64,000 nt of DNA from NCBI RefSeq assembly GCF_019801145.1, contig NZ_JAHVJQ010000001.1, forward strand, positions 372,001-436,000, written 5' to 3'. Below, piece after piece: positions 28,511 through 32,995 of the stretch. The first letter of the stretch is position 1. Each line of letters opens with the position of its first letter. Made by a program: the position numbers and the translations under genes. Under the pieces are notes generated by a model. That model saw nothing but the letters and a program-made list of their open reading frames with translations. It was not told the origin of the DNA and ran no database searches. The DNA comes from Leisingera aquaemixtae (GTDB lineage: Bacteria; Pseudomonadota; Alphaproteobacteria; Rhodobacterales; Rhodobacteraceae).

Positions 28511-28996
28511 ATGGCTGATCAGATCAACACTCTCGAAGAGCTCGCAGCTGCAACCGGTGTGGAAGCAGTGGCCGAAGAAACCATCGCGCGTGAGCCGGTT
28601 CGTGACGAACTCGGCCGCTCCTATGCCACCGGCAAGCGTAAAGACGCTGTTGCCCGCGTCTGGATCAAGCCGGGCTCCGGCAAGGTCGAGGTGAACGGCA
28701 AAGAGCTGAACAAGTACTTCGCCCGCCCGGTGCTGCAGATGATCCTGCGCCAGCCGTTCCAGGTTGCCGGCGTCGAAGACCAGTTCGACGTTTACGCCAC
28801 CGTCAAGGGCGGCGGCCTGTCCGGTCAGGCCGGTGCGGTCAAGCACGGCATCTCCAAAGCCCTGCAGCTGTACGATCCGTCCCTGCGCGGCGCGCTGAAA
28901 GCGGCCGGCTTCCTGACCCGCGACAGCCGCGTTGTGGAACGTAAGAAATACGGTAAGGCCAAAGCCCGCCGTTCGTTCCAGTTCTCCAAGCGCTAA
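28511..28996 (+). CDS. rpsI: 30S ribosomal protein S9
   Basis: A 161-residue S9 with an N-terminal extension of about 35 acidic residues typical of alphaproteobacteria. The core begins at [19 protein letters not shown]. The C-terminal tail [18 protein letters not shown] reaches the P-site tRNA in the ribosome. A terminator follows. Confidence 0.98.
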
Positions 28997-29019
28997 GCTG
29001 GAAACACATGCTTTTGGAA

Positions 29020-29044
29020 GGGCTCGCCGCTGGCGGGCCCTTTT
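29020..29044 (+). terminator. Terminator of the rplM-rpsI operon
   Basis: GGGCTCGCC (29020-29028) pairs with GGCGGGCCC (29032-29040) with one mismatch, followed by TTTT. Confidence 0.75.
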
Positions 29045-29150
29045 CCGTTCCGGCCTCCGCCATTTCCTGCAATCTTTCAGAGTTCTTTTAGAAAGTTTTT
29101 CTAGGTTGGCCCGGTATTCAACGGATCAACACTGGAAGGCGGGACAGACA

Positions 29151-29762
29151 ATGGCTTCTCCTGAGAACTTCAAGACCGCCCCGATTGGCGCCGGGCAGCT
29201 GGAAATCGGCCGCTTTACCCACGGGTATGAGGACATGGACATTCAGGGGCAGGACAGCGGCGCCAGTATCTCCATCGGATCGTTCTGCTCGGTGGGCCGG
29301 GGGGTGCGGGTGCTGCTGGATCAGTCGCCGGCATTGGACCGGATCACTGCCTTTCCGTTTGGCGAGGTCTTCACCGATCATCTGGGCGGCGCGGAAACGC
29401 ACGCGCCCCGGCAGGGCGGCCATGATGTGGTGATCGGTAATGACGTCTGGATCGGCGCCAATGCCACGCTGCTGGGCGGGGTGACCATTGGCGACGGCGC
29501 TGTTATCGGCCCCAATGCCACCGTGGCCGGCGATGTGGGCGCTTACGAGGTCTGGGCGGGAAACCCGGCACAGATGGTCCGCAAACGCTTTGACGACGCG
29601 GTTTGCAAAAAGCTACAGGAACTGCGCTGGTGGGATCTGCCGCTGCCCCTGATCCGGGAGATGGCGCCGCTGCTGTCCGCGCAGCCCACTGCGGACCTGA
29701 TCGAAGGCTTGCAGGGCATTGTCAGCGACCTCGTGACCTTCACCGGCGAAAGCGCAGCCTGA
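29151..29762 (+). CDS. CatB-like hexapeptide acetyltransferase (XAT family)
   Basis: A 203-residue left-handed beta-helix protein. Hexapeptide turns run through ISIGSFCSVGRGVRVLL, then VVIGNDVWIGANATLLGGVTIGDGAVIGPNATVAGDV, and close with YEVWAGNPAQMVRKRF. This is the layout of xenobiotic and sugar O-acetyltransferases (CatB/VatD). The loop between the strands (DRITAFPFGEVFTDH) resembles the substrate loop of that family. Substrate unknown; chloramphenicol should not be assumed. It starts a separate transcript after the ribosomal operon. Confidence 0.85.
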   Translation: MASPENFKTAPIGAGQLEIGRFTHGYEDMDIQGQDSGASISIGSFCSVGRGVRVLLDQSPALDRITAFPFGEVFTDHLGGAETHAPRQGGHDVVIGNDVWIGANATLLGGVTIGDGAVIGPNATVAGDVGAYEVWAGNPAQMVRKRFDDAVCKKLQELRWWDLPLPLIREMAPLLSAQPTADLIEGLQGIVSDLVTFTGESAA

Positions 29763-29836
29763 CCGCTTGAAACCGCGAAACCCGTCTGTATCAGGGCTGA
29801 TTTCCGGCCCGGGGCGGCCTGCGCTGTCCCCGGGCG

Positions 29837-29865
29837 TTAACTTTTTCAAAAAACTAGCGTAACAT
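29837..29865 (+). promoter_or_regulatory. Possible promoter of the globin-cyclase operon
   Basis: TTAACT (29837-29842) and TAACAT (29860-29865) are separated by 17 bases, an acceptable sigma-70 layout, 33 bases before the globin ATG. I see no FnrL or NnrR dyad here. Confidence 0.35.
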
Positions 29866-29898
29866 GGGCAGACCGCTTCCTGTTGGGGGACAGCAGTC

Positions 29899-30267
29899 AT
29901 GCCGCAAACGATCTACGAGAAGTACGGCGGGTTCAGCGCTATCAGCCGGGTCGTGATGACCTTTTACGAGCTGGCGCTCGATTCCGATCAGATCGGCGAC
30001 TACTTCGCCGACGTGGATATGGCGCGCCTCATCGACCACCAGACCAAGTTCATTTCCTCGCTGCTGGGCGGGCCGGCCTCGTTCAGCGATGACCGGCTGG
30101 AGGCAGTGCACCGCGCCTTGGGCATCAGTCACGAAGACTTCGACGAAATGGGCACGCTGCTGAAAGAAGCGCTGGAGCAACATGGGCTGTCGGAACCGGA
30201 TATCCGAACCACACTCAGCGCCATCGAATCGAAACGCAGCATCATTGTCACCAGGGATGCGGCATGA
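29899..30267 (+). CDS. Group 1 truncated hemoglobin (heme sensor candidate)
   Basis: A 122-residue two-over-two globin. The N-terminal YEKYGGFSAI and the FADVDMARLIDHQTKF E-helix block are group-1 traits. The B10 Tyr (Tyr23 in TFYELAL) and the proximal F8 His (His71 in AVHRALGIS) are present, so heme binding is expected. Its stop overlaps the start of a PAS-adenylate cyclase gene (ATGA), so the two proteins are made together. This makes a gas-sensing role (oxygen, NO) more likely than storage or simple NO dioxygenation; that is inference. Confidence 0.88.
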   Translation: MPQTIYEKYGGFSAISRVVMTFYELALDSDQIGDYFADVDMARLIDHQTKFISSLLGGPASFSDDRLEAVHRALGISHEDFDEMGTLLKEALEQHGLSEPDIRTTLSAIESKRSIIVTRDAA

Positions 30268-31322
30268 GCATTGCCGCCATCAACGAACAGTTGTTGCGCG
30301 CAATAGGCGTCGGTGTGGCTGTCGTTCGGGCCTCTGATCTGGGGTTTGTCTTTCACAACCAGCCGTTTGCGGAATGGTTCGGCACCCCGGGGCCCGGCGC
30401 GTCCCTGATAGATGCTATTGACGGCCTCAGCGCGGAAGACCTGAGCACGCTGTGCGACGAAGGGCTGCGCTATTCCGCAGAGCTCAAGATCAAGCGCAAG
30501 CGCCGCACGCTGGTGTTTGCCATAAATATCTCCCAGGCCAGCCATCTGGACGAGCCGCTCCTGGTGGTGGAATGCCAGAACATCACCCGCATCCGCGAGC
30601 TGGAGAGCATGATCGACAGCTACTCCGCTATGGTGGAGCGCAACACCCGCGAGCTGGAGCGCGAGAAGGAGCGGGTGGAACGGCTGCTGCTGAACCTGAT
30701 GCCACGCTCCGTCTATGAGGAATTCAAGACCTTCGGGGTGGTGACACCGCAGCTCTATCCCAAGGTCTCGGTCGTAATGTTGGACTTTGTTGATTTCACC
30801 GATTTTGCCTCGCGCACCGATCCGACGGTGACACTGGGAGAGCTGAACGACATTTTCACTGCCTTCGACCGCATCGTCGAACAATACGGCTGCGAGCGGA
30901 TCAAGACCATCGGCGACGCTTACCTGGCGGTGTCCGGAATGCCGGACCCGGCACCGGACCACGCCACCGCTGTGGCCCATTGCGCCACCCGTTTCCTGCG
31001 CTACCTGGACCGGCGCAACCAGAGCCATCAGCACAAGTGGCAGGCCCGGATCGGCCTGGGAACCGGATCTGCCGTCGGTTCCGTGGTGGGCATCCAGAAG
31101 TATGTCTATGACGTCTTCGGCCCGGCGGTGAACCTGGCCTCCCGCCTGCAAGTCTTTGCCAACCCGATGAAAATCGTCGCGCCCGAAGAAATGAAGGAAG
31201 CCCTGTCCGAGGAATTCCATGTCACCGATATCGGGCCTGAGGATATCAAGGGGATCGGCGAAGTGAACCTGGTCAATGTCGGCAGTGAGCTGAGCGCGCC
31301 GCAGCCGAGCGGCCGGTTCTAG
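30264..31322 (+). CDS. PAS-coiled coil-class III adenylate cyclase
   Basis: A 352-residue soluble protein. Residues 5-108 look like a PAS/HNOBA-type domain, 112-150 a coiled coil ending in LLLNLMPRSVYEEFK (the linker form seen in soluble guanylate cyclases), and 165-338 the catalytic domain. Metal Asp residues are 174 and 218. Lys214 (RIKTIGD) and Asp283 (VYDVFG) are the adenine-specifying pair, so the product should be cAMP, not cGMP. Asn290 and Arg294 of the transition-state motif are present. It is coupled to the truncated hemoglobin gene and likely regulated by it. Confidence 0.9.
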   Translation: MSIAAINEQLLRAIGVGVAVVRASDLGFVFHNQPFAEWFGTPGPGASLIDAIDGLSAEDLSTLCDEGLRYSAELKIKRKRRTLVFAINISQASHLDEPLLVVECQNITRIRELESMIDSYSAMVERNTRELEREKERVERLLLNLMPRSVYEEFKTFGVVTPQLYPKVSVVMLDFVDFTDFASRTDPTVTLGELNDIFTAFDRIVEQYGCERIKTIGDAYLAVSGMPDPAPDHATAVAHCATRFLRYLDRRNQSHQHKWQARIGLGTGSAVGSVVGIQKYVYDVFGPAVNLASRLQVFANPMKIVAPEEMKEALSEEFHVTDIGPEDIKGIGEVNLVNVGSELSAPQPSGRF

Positions 31323-31331
31323 CAGCCGGGT

Positions 31332-31949
31332 CTAATTGTCCGGTCCGATCAGCCCCAAGCCGCGCAAGTAGATGCCAATACCGCTTTCCAGCAGATCCTC
31401 CGGCGGGAAGGGCGAAGCGGCACCAGGAGAGTTGCGCGCATAAAGCTCCACTACCCCGTGGCTCATCGCCAGCACATGTGCCGAGAACATCGAGGCCGGC
31501 GGGCGTTTCTCGGCCGGGATATGCTGGCTGAGGTCGGCTGCGGCTCGTTCCAGGATCTGCCGCGCCCGCGCGGCGGCATCGGCCAGTTCCGGGGTGCGGT
31601 TCACCGAAATCCCGCTTTCGAACATAGCGATGTAATGTCCGGGATGCTTGCGGGCAAAGGCCAGATAGGCGCGCCCGGTCGCCTCAAACGCCGCCAGTGC
31701 AGAGGGCTGGTACTTGTCATAGGCATGCTGCATCAGGTCTGCGAACATAACGTAGCCCTGACGCGAGGCCTCGGCGATCAGATCCTCGCGCCCTTCGAAA
31801 TGGCGGTAAACAGCCGCCGGGGTGACACCGGCCTGCTTGGCGGCCTCCGACAGGGTAAAGCCGGTCGGCCCCTTGGCCTCGATCAGCTGCAGGGCGGCTT
31901 CGACCAGCGCCTGGCGCAGATTGCCGTGATGATAACCGCGTTTAGGCAT
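31332..31949 (-). CDS. TetR-family transcriptional regulator
   Basis: A 205-residue regulator. The N-terminal HTH is [28 protein letters not shown] (about residues 32-60), preceded by [19 protein letters not shown]. The C-terminal ligand domain resembles the WHG-type TetR group. The ATG at 31949 overlaps the end of ppk2 by 8 bases, so it is read from the ppk2 transcript. It may control that operon or a distant lipid/stress gene; no operator is evident. Confidence 0.9.
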
Positions 31950-32811
31950 CCCAGATGTCCGGGCCTCCGCAAATCTTGGTGTCCAGGGCGCCAATCGCCT
32001 TGGAGTCCTTGCTGGCATAGTCAATGGCGTGCAGCACGCTGCGCATCGCCGCCAGCCTGGCCCGCCGTTTGTCATCCGAGCGGATGATAGTCCAGGGGGC
32101 TTCGGCGCAGTGGCTGCGCGCAAAGGTTTCGGAGATGGCGGCGGTGTATTCGTCCCATTTCTCCAGCCCCTTCACATCAATCGGGCTGAGCTTCCACTGT
32201 TTCAGGGGGTCCGACTCCCGCGATAGAAACCGCCGCAACTGTTCAGCCCGGCCAACGTTGAGCCAGAATTTGAACAGCCGGATGCCATCCTCGGCCAAGG
32301 CCTGCTCAAACCCCTTCACCTGGTGAAAGAACCGCTCGCGCTGCGCGTCCGTGCAAAAGCCGAACACCTTTTCCACAACGCCGCGGTTGTACCAGCTGCG
32401 GTCAAAGAACACGATTTCGCCGCCGGACGGCAGGTGCTGGATGTAGCGCTGGAAATACCACTGGCTCTGTTCGGCTTCACTGGGCTTCGGCAGCGCCACC
32501 ACCCGTGCGCCGCGCGGGTTCAGGTTTTCCCGGAACCGCCGGATGGTACCGCCCTTGCCGGCCGCATCCCGGCCTTCAAACACGATGGCAATGCGGGCGC
32601 CGCTGGACTTGACCCAGGATTGCAGCTTCACCAGTTCGATCTGCAGTGCCTCCAGCTCTGCCTCATAGGACTTGCGCTTCATCCGCTCGTTGTGCGGGTA
32701 GCCGGGGCTCAGGATATCATCCTTGTCCGCACCCTTGATCGCCGCGCGGATCTCCTCCGGCGCGCCGCTTTGGCTGTAGCGGCTGATAGCCCCGTCAAAT
32801 GGCAGCGGCAT
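31942..32811 (-). CDS. ppk2: Polyphosphate kinase 2 (class I PPK2)
   Basis: A 289-residue P-loop kinase that transfers phosphate between polyphosphate and nucleoside diphosphates. Walker A is [11 protein letters not shown] (residues 78-88), the lid-type motif [11 protein letters not shown] follows, and Walker B is [10 protein letters not shown] single PPK2 domain indicates class I, which usually favours nucleotide diphosphate phosphorylation from polyP. ATG 32811 has an AGAAGGG ribosome site; an upstream TTG is possible. The tetR gene follows with overlap. Confidence 0.93.
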
Positions 32812-32995
32812 GTGCAAAACCCTTCTGTCCTCAACCCCTTATATGGGAAGACAGTATGGAATGTGAATCGCTTTAACGCAAATTTGCGCAGCTGACATGG
32901 GGGCGTTGCGGCAAAAGCCGGAGGGTGCTGCACCGGCCCGGCGCGGGCGGGTGCAGTTGAGGGTTACAGACTGTTGGGGATCAGCTGCCGCGGTT

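Follow-up and report, generated by a model that had tools for sequence, protein, structure and literature searches.

A truncated hemoglobin gene paired with a PAS-adenylate cyclase gene in Leisingera aquaemixtae: a possible two-protein heme sensor of Alphaproteobacteria

A group I truncated hemoglobin gene and a class III adenylate cyclase gene form a conserved, overlapping pair in Leisingera aquaemixtae. With moderate confidence, we read the two products as one signalling unit in which a stand-alone truncated hemoglobin would be the heme sensor and a PAS-helix-cyclase protein the effector. The pair lies in a stretch of 64,000 nucleotides, called the window here. The effector is probably a homodimeric class III adenylate cyclase, and the arrangement suggests a two-protein gas or redox sensor with the globin switching the enzyme on or off. 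This reading is built from sequence and a structural model, namely from the gene organisation, intact functional residues, co-occurrence in genomes, purifying selection and a model architecture like that of soluble guanylate cyclase. The gene pair pointed out in a preliminary description is confirmed, and the interpretation offered there, a split heme-regulated cyclase, is supported in part.

The gene pair and its distribution

The globin gene (29899..30267, plus strand, 122 aa) was assigned from its match to PF01152 at 62.7 bits and from PDB sequence matches, and the cyclase gene that follows (30264..31322, plus strand, 352 aa) from PF00211, an AlphaFold2 model and PDB fold matches. Both open reading frames stand where the preliminary description had placed them, and the overlap of the globin stop with the cyclase start that it reported was borne out as a shared 4-nt ATGA (30264..30267, plus strand). 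An AGGGA resembling a Shine-Dalgarno sequence (30253..30257, plus strand) was read inside the 3' end of the globin gene, 6 nt 5' of the cyclase ATG. On the 5' side of the globin gene, GTTAAC (29836-29841) and TAACAT (29860-29865), separated by 18 nt, make up a promoter-like element (29836..29865, plus strand). Both boxes are kept at the corresponding place in an alignment of four loci of the same genus (L006, L011, L013 and L020); the element is proposed from this conservation, since a scan of 29600-31500 for the sigma-70 consensus gave no promoter match. Palindromes of the FNR type 5' of the globin were considered as support for regulation by O2 or NO and rejected, the two stricter forms occurring in 0/59 cases and the loosest in 4/59 against 1.9 expected.

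The surroundings of the pair are less constant than the pair itself. On its 5' side the window has a gene for a hexapeptide-repeat acyltransferase (28932-29762) that is CatB/Vat-like but scores far below the cut-offs of those families, and convergent to the cyclase, on the minus strand, are genes for a TetR-type regulator (31332-32123) and a polyphosphate kinase 2 (31942-32817). Clusters of the latter two recur in 42 and 48, respectively, of 80 public loci (the best 80 of 268 relatives). Other neighbours vary between clades while the pair persists, and the next commonest neighbour families are found in 48 and 44 of the 80 loci.

Conserved adjacency had been named beforehand as the main check on the pairing, and the result was strongly positive: across the alphaproteobacterial genomes sampled, the two genes hardly ever occur apart. 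A full-length cyclase was found in 19 of the 21 genomes of the genus sample, each time with an adjoining globin. Among 295 genomes of the family, cyclases at E <= 1e-60 and globins at E <= 1e-10 occurred in the same 20 genomes, that of the window included, and were neighbours in 20/20; all 21 globins found at this threshold adjoin a cyclase or a degenerate cyclase copy. A public collection of species genomes was scanned with two patterns from this cyclase family, and the globin lay directly upstream of the cyclase in 80/80 loci among the best 80 of 268 relatives, a set that favours close relatives because the patterns came from this family. The 4-nt overlap is present in 70 of these 80. The loci include Leisingera, Ruegeria, Tritonibacter, Shimia, Roseibium, Stappia and Limibaculum, and also Rhizobiaceae, Tepidamorphaceae, Kiloniellaceae and Pelagibius. 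Leisingera supplies the majority of the closest relatives that carry a name.

At the level of the class (385 genomes), 17 cyclase matches exceeded 350 bits (two with internal stops), and the next fell below 175 bits. A globin stood upstream of 17/17 of the long matches versus 0/13 of the weaker ones (13 of 42 weaker matches were tested), and a comparison of coordinates found one more of these 42, in genome G1002, adjoining a globin. The reverse search returned 19 globins above 90 bits. Sixteen adjoin a cyclase of the family, the one in G879 carrying a stop, and 3 of the 19 have no family cyclase alongside: those of G729 and G973 and the second copy of G777. The stretches surrounding the G729 globin and the G777 second copy gave no match to the cyclase profile. 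In a phylum sample of 398 genomes, three globins were found at E <= 1e-25, all within the class and all beside a cyclase. On the Novosphingobium plasmid pLA3 the pair is annotated as a group 1 truncated hemoglobin and an adenylate/guanylate cyclase domain-containing protein. Spacing between globin and cyclase ranged from -11 to +134 nt among 116 pairs, with starts chosen mechanically. No globin-cyclase fusion was found in a search that covered proteins of about 261-830 aa and depended on exact words in common; the single match was rejected as a fusion candidate, covering 25% of the globin query and carrying other Pfam domains.

Several loci depart from the common layout. Within the genus, G016 lacks both genes, and what is left of the pair in G012 (L022, L156) is a joined remnant, the beginning of the globin leading directly into the final part of the cyclase. 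A second globin copy in G145 (L155, the 21st globin of the family sample) adjoins a degenerate, apparently frame-shifted cyclase copy, and in G719 a broken cyclase has a truncated globin as its neighbour. In G973 (L219:5626-6437) the globin overlaps, again by ATGA, an open reading frame of 146 aa with a weak PAS hint, a charged coiled-coil-like end and no cyclase domain; homology of this frame to the N terminus of the cyclase was not supported (hhalign probability 3%). G1002, which also carries the main pair, has a second one (L224:3008-4695, minus strand): a GAF-type class III cyclase with HNOBA at 30.0 (cut-off 23.4), preceded at about 15 nt by another truncated hemoglobin (PF01152, 53.6 bits). 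This single case points the same way, with a truncated hemoglobin gene preceding a cyclase that has a small sensory domain and a similar linker; it does not alter the confidence placed in the main reading.

Both genes are under strong purifying selection, with a median dN/dS of 0.067 for the globin and 0.043 for the cyclase (171 pairs, 19 same-genus genomes) and the lowest value within the genus, 0.022, in the signalling helix of the cyclase. Because these ratios are low and adjacency is kept well beyond the genus, the pair is not a product of chance. Protein distances of globin and cyclase correlated with r = 0.83 over 60 non-redundant pairs, compared to at most 0.21 in 1000 permutations, which shows joint inheritance, not contact. 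The two trees share their main groups, with L033/L035/L038, L041 and L128/L129 placed differently, and the presence of members of the window's family in several distant clades suggests horizontal transfer of the pair. Coevolution was assessed by grouped-alphabet mutual information on 117 pairs (effective number 51) with permutations within clade clusters. With 6 clusters the observed value lay above 100/100 permutations; with 15 and 30 clusters the maximum was reached by 61/100 and 35/100 permutations and the mean of the top 20 by 6/100 and 87/100, so that the signal vanished once permutations respected finer clades.

The heme pocket of the globin and the architecture of the cyclase

PF01152 (cut-off 21) is the best fit of the globin among Pfam families, Protoglobin reaching 14.6 bits, below its cut-off of 25; NCBIfam profiles gave nothing above cut-off for either member of the pair. 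The closest PDB sequences are 3aq5, 1idr and cyanoglobins, named group 1 truncated hemoglobin. The pocket residues are Tyr23, Leu44, His47 (30037-30039), Gln48 and His71 (30109-30111), which we take to be positions B10, E7, E10, E11 and F8. His71 and Tyr23, on which the preliminary description had based its expectation of heme binding, are present and have a His and a Tyr as counterparts in both Mycobacterium tuberculosis HbN and the Tetrahymena truncated hemoglobin. In the HbN alignment Tyr23, Leu44, Gln48 and His71 all fall on identical residues, with His47 opposite a Lys, and in the cyanoglobin alignment His47 is opposite a His. Tyr23, Asp46, His47, Gln48, Phe51 and His71 occur in 116/116 distinct globin-cyclase pairs, including pairs whose cyclase has lost catalytic residues; this set leaves out loci with a split or sub-threshold cyclase (L134, L022 and L140), and L155 was added to the data later. 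The glycine motifs Gly10-Gly11 and Gly57-Gly58 are invariant in 60 non-redundant rows.

The residue at E10 is His in 116/116 cyclase-linked globins and in 0/12 of the next-best unlinked globins of the class (L206-L217, 66-83 bits). In these twelve it is Met in six, Lys in four, Arg in one and Ser in one, and their loci show no match to the cyclase profile. His is also found in L001, L202, L205 and L220, four globins that lack such a cyclase, so His at E10 marks a clade rather than linkage alone. L001 (G000:C23:4451-4804) is a second, distant truncated hemoglobin in the window's own genome, at 27 bits to the family profile, and its stretch gave no match to the cyclase profile. A long open frame in L216 (G747:C32), 992 aa on the stretch, contains two truncated-hemoglobin matches and is possibly a tandem globin protein or just an open frame. 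His47 is a candidate second heme ligand, a point new relative to the preliminary description, which does not name Leu44 or Gln48 either. According to passages of PMC11904497, the heme iron may be coordinated by the E10 residue, and GlbN of Synechococcus uses its distal histidine as an iron ligand, whose release is coupled to a conformational change. E10 is described as generally basic in truncated hemoglobins in a passage of PMC4720485. The studied truncated hemoglobin of Roseobacter denitrificans has been assigned to group II.

The cyclase matches PF00211 over residues 162-334 (142.5 bits, cut-off 21.9), and two further Pfam families stay below threshold, PAS_8 at 18.5 (cut-off 21.8) and HNOBA at 19.1 (cut-off 23.4). 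Its AlphaFold2 model (mean pLDDT 83.4, pTM 0.56) begins with an N-terminal helix and PAS domain (residues 1-104, 30264..30575, plus strand), comprising a helix at 3-14 and strands at 17-22, 27-31, 70-78, 81-92 and 99-106 with helices between. The PAS assignment comes from the model and the weak Pfam match, the N-terminal 159 residues having no relative among PDB sequences at E up to 1. A signalling helix (107-145 in the model) and a linker with the motif LNLMPRS follow (residues 105-160, 30576..30743, plus strand), and then the catalytic domain (residues 161-343, 30744..31292, plus strand), placed by PF00211, identity to 5o5k and residue conservation. Based on mean column entropy, the helix/linker segment 105-160 is the most conserved of the four compared (0.63), ahead of 163-300 (0.92), 1-104 (1.94) and 301-352 (2.40).

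The full class III residue set is intact in the window cyclase, all on the plus strand: Asp174 (30783-30785) and Asp218 (30915-30917), which we take to bind metal, Lys214 (30903-30905) and Asp283 (31110-31112), presumably the substrate pair, and Asn290 (31131-31133) and Arg294 (31143-31145), presumably the transition-state pair. LNLMPRS, Lys214 and Asp283 are as the preliminary description gave them; the other four residues are added here. The GTP-type substrate residues of guanylate cyclases are Glu and Cys. These are absent here, with Lys214 and Asp283 in their stead, which, taken with what is generally known of class III enzymes, predicts ATP as the substrate. The closest solved structure to the catalytic domain is the bacterial adenylyl cyclase 5o5k, with 37% identity over 212 aligned residues. 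The cyclase had also been likened to soluble guanylate cyclase minus its H-NOX domain. By fold this is supported, the model resembling the human enzyme from the PAS through the catalytic domain in a PDB fold comparison, although the HNOBA match remains under its cut-off. H-NOX is not among the Pfam matches of the 352-aa protein, whose N terminus is a helix and a PAS fold.

The mechanism that we infer, covering heme binding, the sixth ligand, the contact, the identity of the ligand, the direction of the effect and the downstream targets, would start with the globin binding heme via His71. At rest, His47 may hold the iron as sixth ligand. His47, in an HbN-like pocket (Tyr B10, Leu E7, Gln E11), would be displaced when O2 or NO binds or the redox state changes, and the E helix would move, with the conserved Asp46, Thr49 and Lys50, or another face of the globin, contacting the PAS domain and signalling helix of the cyclase. 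A shift in the helix pair would then alter cAMP synthesis, and CRP-type proteins would read the cAMP; the window's genome has 13 cNMP-binding domains.

Kinase-linked relatives and alternative readings

In five relatives (Novosphingobium pLA3, G056, G171, G145 and G237; loci L160, L161, L169, L170 and L171), a histidine kinase gene lies directly downstream of the cyclase on the same strand. All five cyclases are without Asn290/Arg294, and two are also without Asp174. Among 110 distinct cyclases in loci of more than 6 kb, such a kinase directly follows 5 of the 8 that lack Asn/Arg and 0 of the 102 that keep them, with a Fisher value of 4.6e-7 that overstates the association because all five loci group together in a single clade of the globin tree (98/93); the cyclase tree does not resolve the kinase-linked cyclase of Novosphingobium. 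The other three Asn/Arg-lacking cyclases are L172, which has a kinase and a regulator 3.7 kb upstream in divergent orientation, and two broken copies, L155 and L166. In the kinase-linked loci the globin residues Tyr23, His47, Gln48 and His71 are unchanged, and for four of the cyclases the signalling helix shares 64-88% identity with the helices of eight relatives, which include Novosphingobium. The globin pocket and the signalling helix stay intact after catalytic loss, which suggests that the globin-PAS-helix part is useful in its own right, probably to the kinase, and the output of the cyclase may have been rewired in these five loci, a point that goes beyond the preliminary description.

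Pfam searches of two kinases, that of Novosphingobium and a more distant one from Pelagibius, identified PAS, HisKA, HATPase and receiver domains. Divergently upstream of 11 Asn/Arg-keeping cyclases from other clades (L111, L114-L116, L118, L119, L121, L173-L175 and L177) there is also a strong relative of the kinase, with at least 683 bits to the Pelagibius protein, accompanied by a related response regulator in 10/11. Kinase and pair are separated by two genes, which look like a hydrolase and a methyltransferase, in L116 and, going by gene clusters, also in L115, L118, L119 and L121. The window's clade has no such kinase directly downstream. A kinase partner was not assumed for the window's organism, whose genome has one match to the kinase at E <= 1e-40, with 31% identity over the C-terminal half.

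These loci could mean that the globin and the PAS-helix form a general sensor module with several outputs, one lineage having taken on a histidine kinase output and reduced the cyclase to a relay without catalytic activity. This reading shares ground with the main explanation and does not compete with it, and we consider it possible rather than probable. It would account for the five kinase-followed cyclases being without Asn290/Arg294, compared to 0/102 Asn/Arg-keepers with such a kinase, although as one clade the five represent one or two evolutionary events, and L172, L155 and L166 lost Asn/Arg with no kinase directly downstream. The pocket residues and signalling helix kept in the kinase-linked loci speak for it, whereas the window's own clade lacks a directly downstream kinase of that type. 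The G973 globin, which has no cyclase and overlaps a 146-aa frame in which PAS is weakly hinted at, speaks for it too, but that frame is not significantly similar to the N-terminal part of the cyclase. Put in its full form, and tentatively, the proposal is of a widespread alphaproteobacterial module in which a truncated hemoglobin with His at E10 would act in trans on a PAS-signalling helix driving an adenylate cyclase, with one lineage rewired to a histidine-kinase phosphorelay in which the cyclase is a dead relay.

It is also conceivable, if unlikely, that the globin is an NO dioxygenase or a scavenger of O2 or NO that shares an operon with the cyclase through a common stress, the cyclase sensing through its own PAS domain with no contact between the two. 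Tyr23, Leu44 and Gln48 match HbN of M. tuberculosis, to which passages of PMC7082302 and PMC4319818 ascribe NO dioxygenase activity, yet the two differ at E10, with His for Lys. The vanishing of the coevolution signal for contact in finer clades fits such a role, as do the two unlinked relatives whose E10 residue is His (the G729 globin and the G777 second copy) and the PAS domain, which could itself be the sensor. Scavenging globins would, however, be expected often without a cyclase, and the absence of solitary globins from the family sample, where 21/21 adjoin a cyclase or a degenerate copy, weakens this account; the heme residues, moreover, are invariant even where the cyclase has lost its catalytic residues. 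Very improbable, in our judgement, is translational coupling without functional contact, the globin being a leader gene that sets cyclase expression. The ATGA overlap in 70/80 public loci (best 80 of 268) speaks for it, but the pair persists at spacings of -11 to +134 nt among 116 pairs, and a leader would have no need of the invariant heme-pocket residues.

Relation to known heme sensors

Read as sensor and effector of one signalling unit, the pair has likenesses to several known systems and differs from each. Soluble guanylate cyclase runs from H-NOX through PAS/HNOBA and a coiled coil to a class III cyclase, and the window cyclase resembles its fold from the PAS to the catalytic domain; here, in contrast, there is no H-NOX, the truncated hemoglobin is separate, Lys/Asp predict ATP and HNOBA stays below cut-off. 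Globin-coupled sensors have the globin fused to the output, whereas here there are two separate open reading frames and the Protoglobin match is sub-threshold. In HemAC-Lm of Leishmania, globin and cyclase are one protein, unlike the two genes and the group I truncated globin found here. Passages of PMC4534343 describe HemAC-Lm as a soluble heme-containing adenylate cyclase, oxygen-responsive and globin-coupled. Stand-alone H-NOX systems, with an adjacent gene for a histidine kinase or a cyclic-di-GMP enzyme, likewise encode a small separate heme protein beside a signalling partner, and according to passages of PMC8738867 that partner can be a kinase, and HnoD, with an inactive enzyme domain, takes part. 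The heme protein here differs in having a truncated globin fold, and its usual partner is a class III adenylate cyclase. Compared to the split sensors of the H-NOX and NosP types, the heme protein is of PF01152 rather than H-NOX or FIST, and it has in common with them a stand-alone heme-protein gene kept beside an enzyme (20/20 in the family, 80/80 among the best 80 of 268 public relatives and 17/17 in the class).

The globin has its family and its pocket residues in common with other group I truncated hemoglobins (M. tuberculosis HbN, the Tetrahymena protein and cyanobacterial GlbN) and differs from them in its genetic tie to a cyclase and its invariant Asp46-His47-Gln48. The bacterial class III cyclases 5o5k and Rv1625c are membrane-anchored; compared to these, the window cyclase has a PAS domain and a globin partner. 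Split H-NOX heme sensors and the heme adenylate cyclase of Leishmania are already known, and the open-access literature searched gave no earlier account of a class III cyclase that has a truncated hemoglobin as its partner.

Truncated hemoglobins are widespread, and their roles have mostly been assigned to NO or O2 chemistry. If our reading is true, the pair would be a clear case of a truncated hemoglobin in the role of a stand-alone sensor subunit, and of a cyclase that is bacterial, is built like soluble guanylate cyclase and uses a globin in trans. It would offer a tractable two-protein system for how heme state reaches a PAS-signalling helix, and the kinase-linked relatives would be a natural experiment in output swapping.
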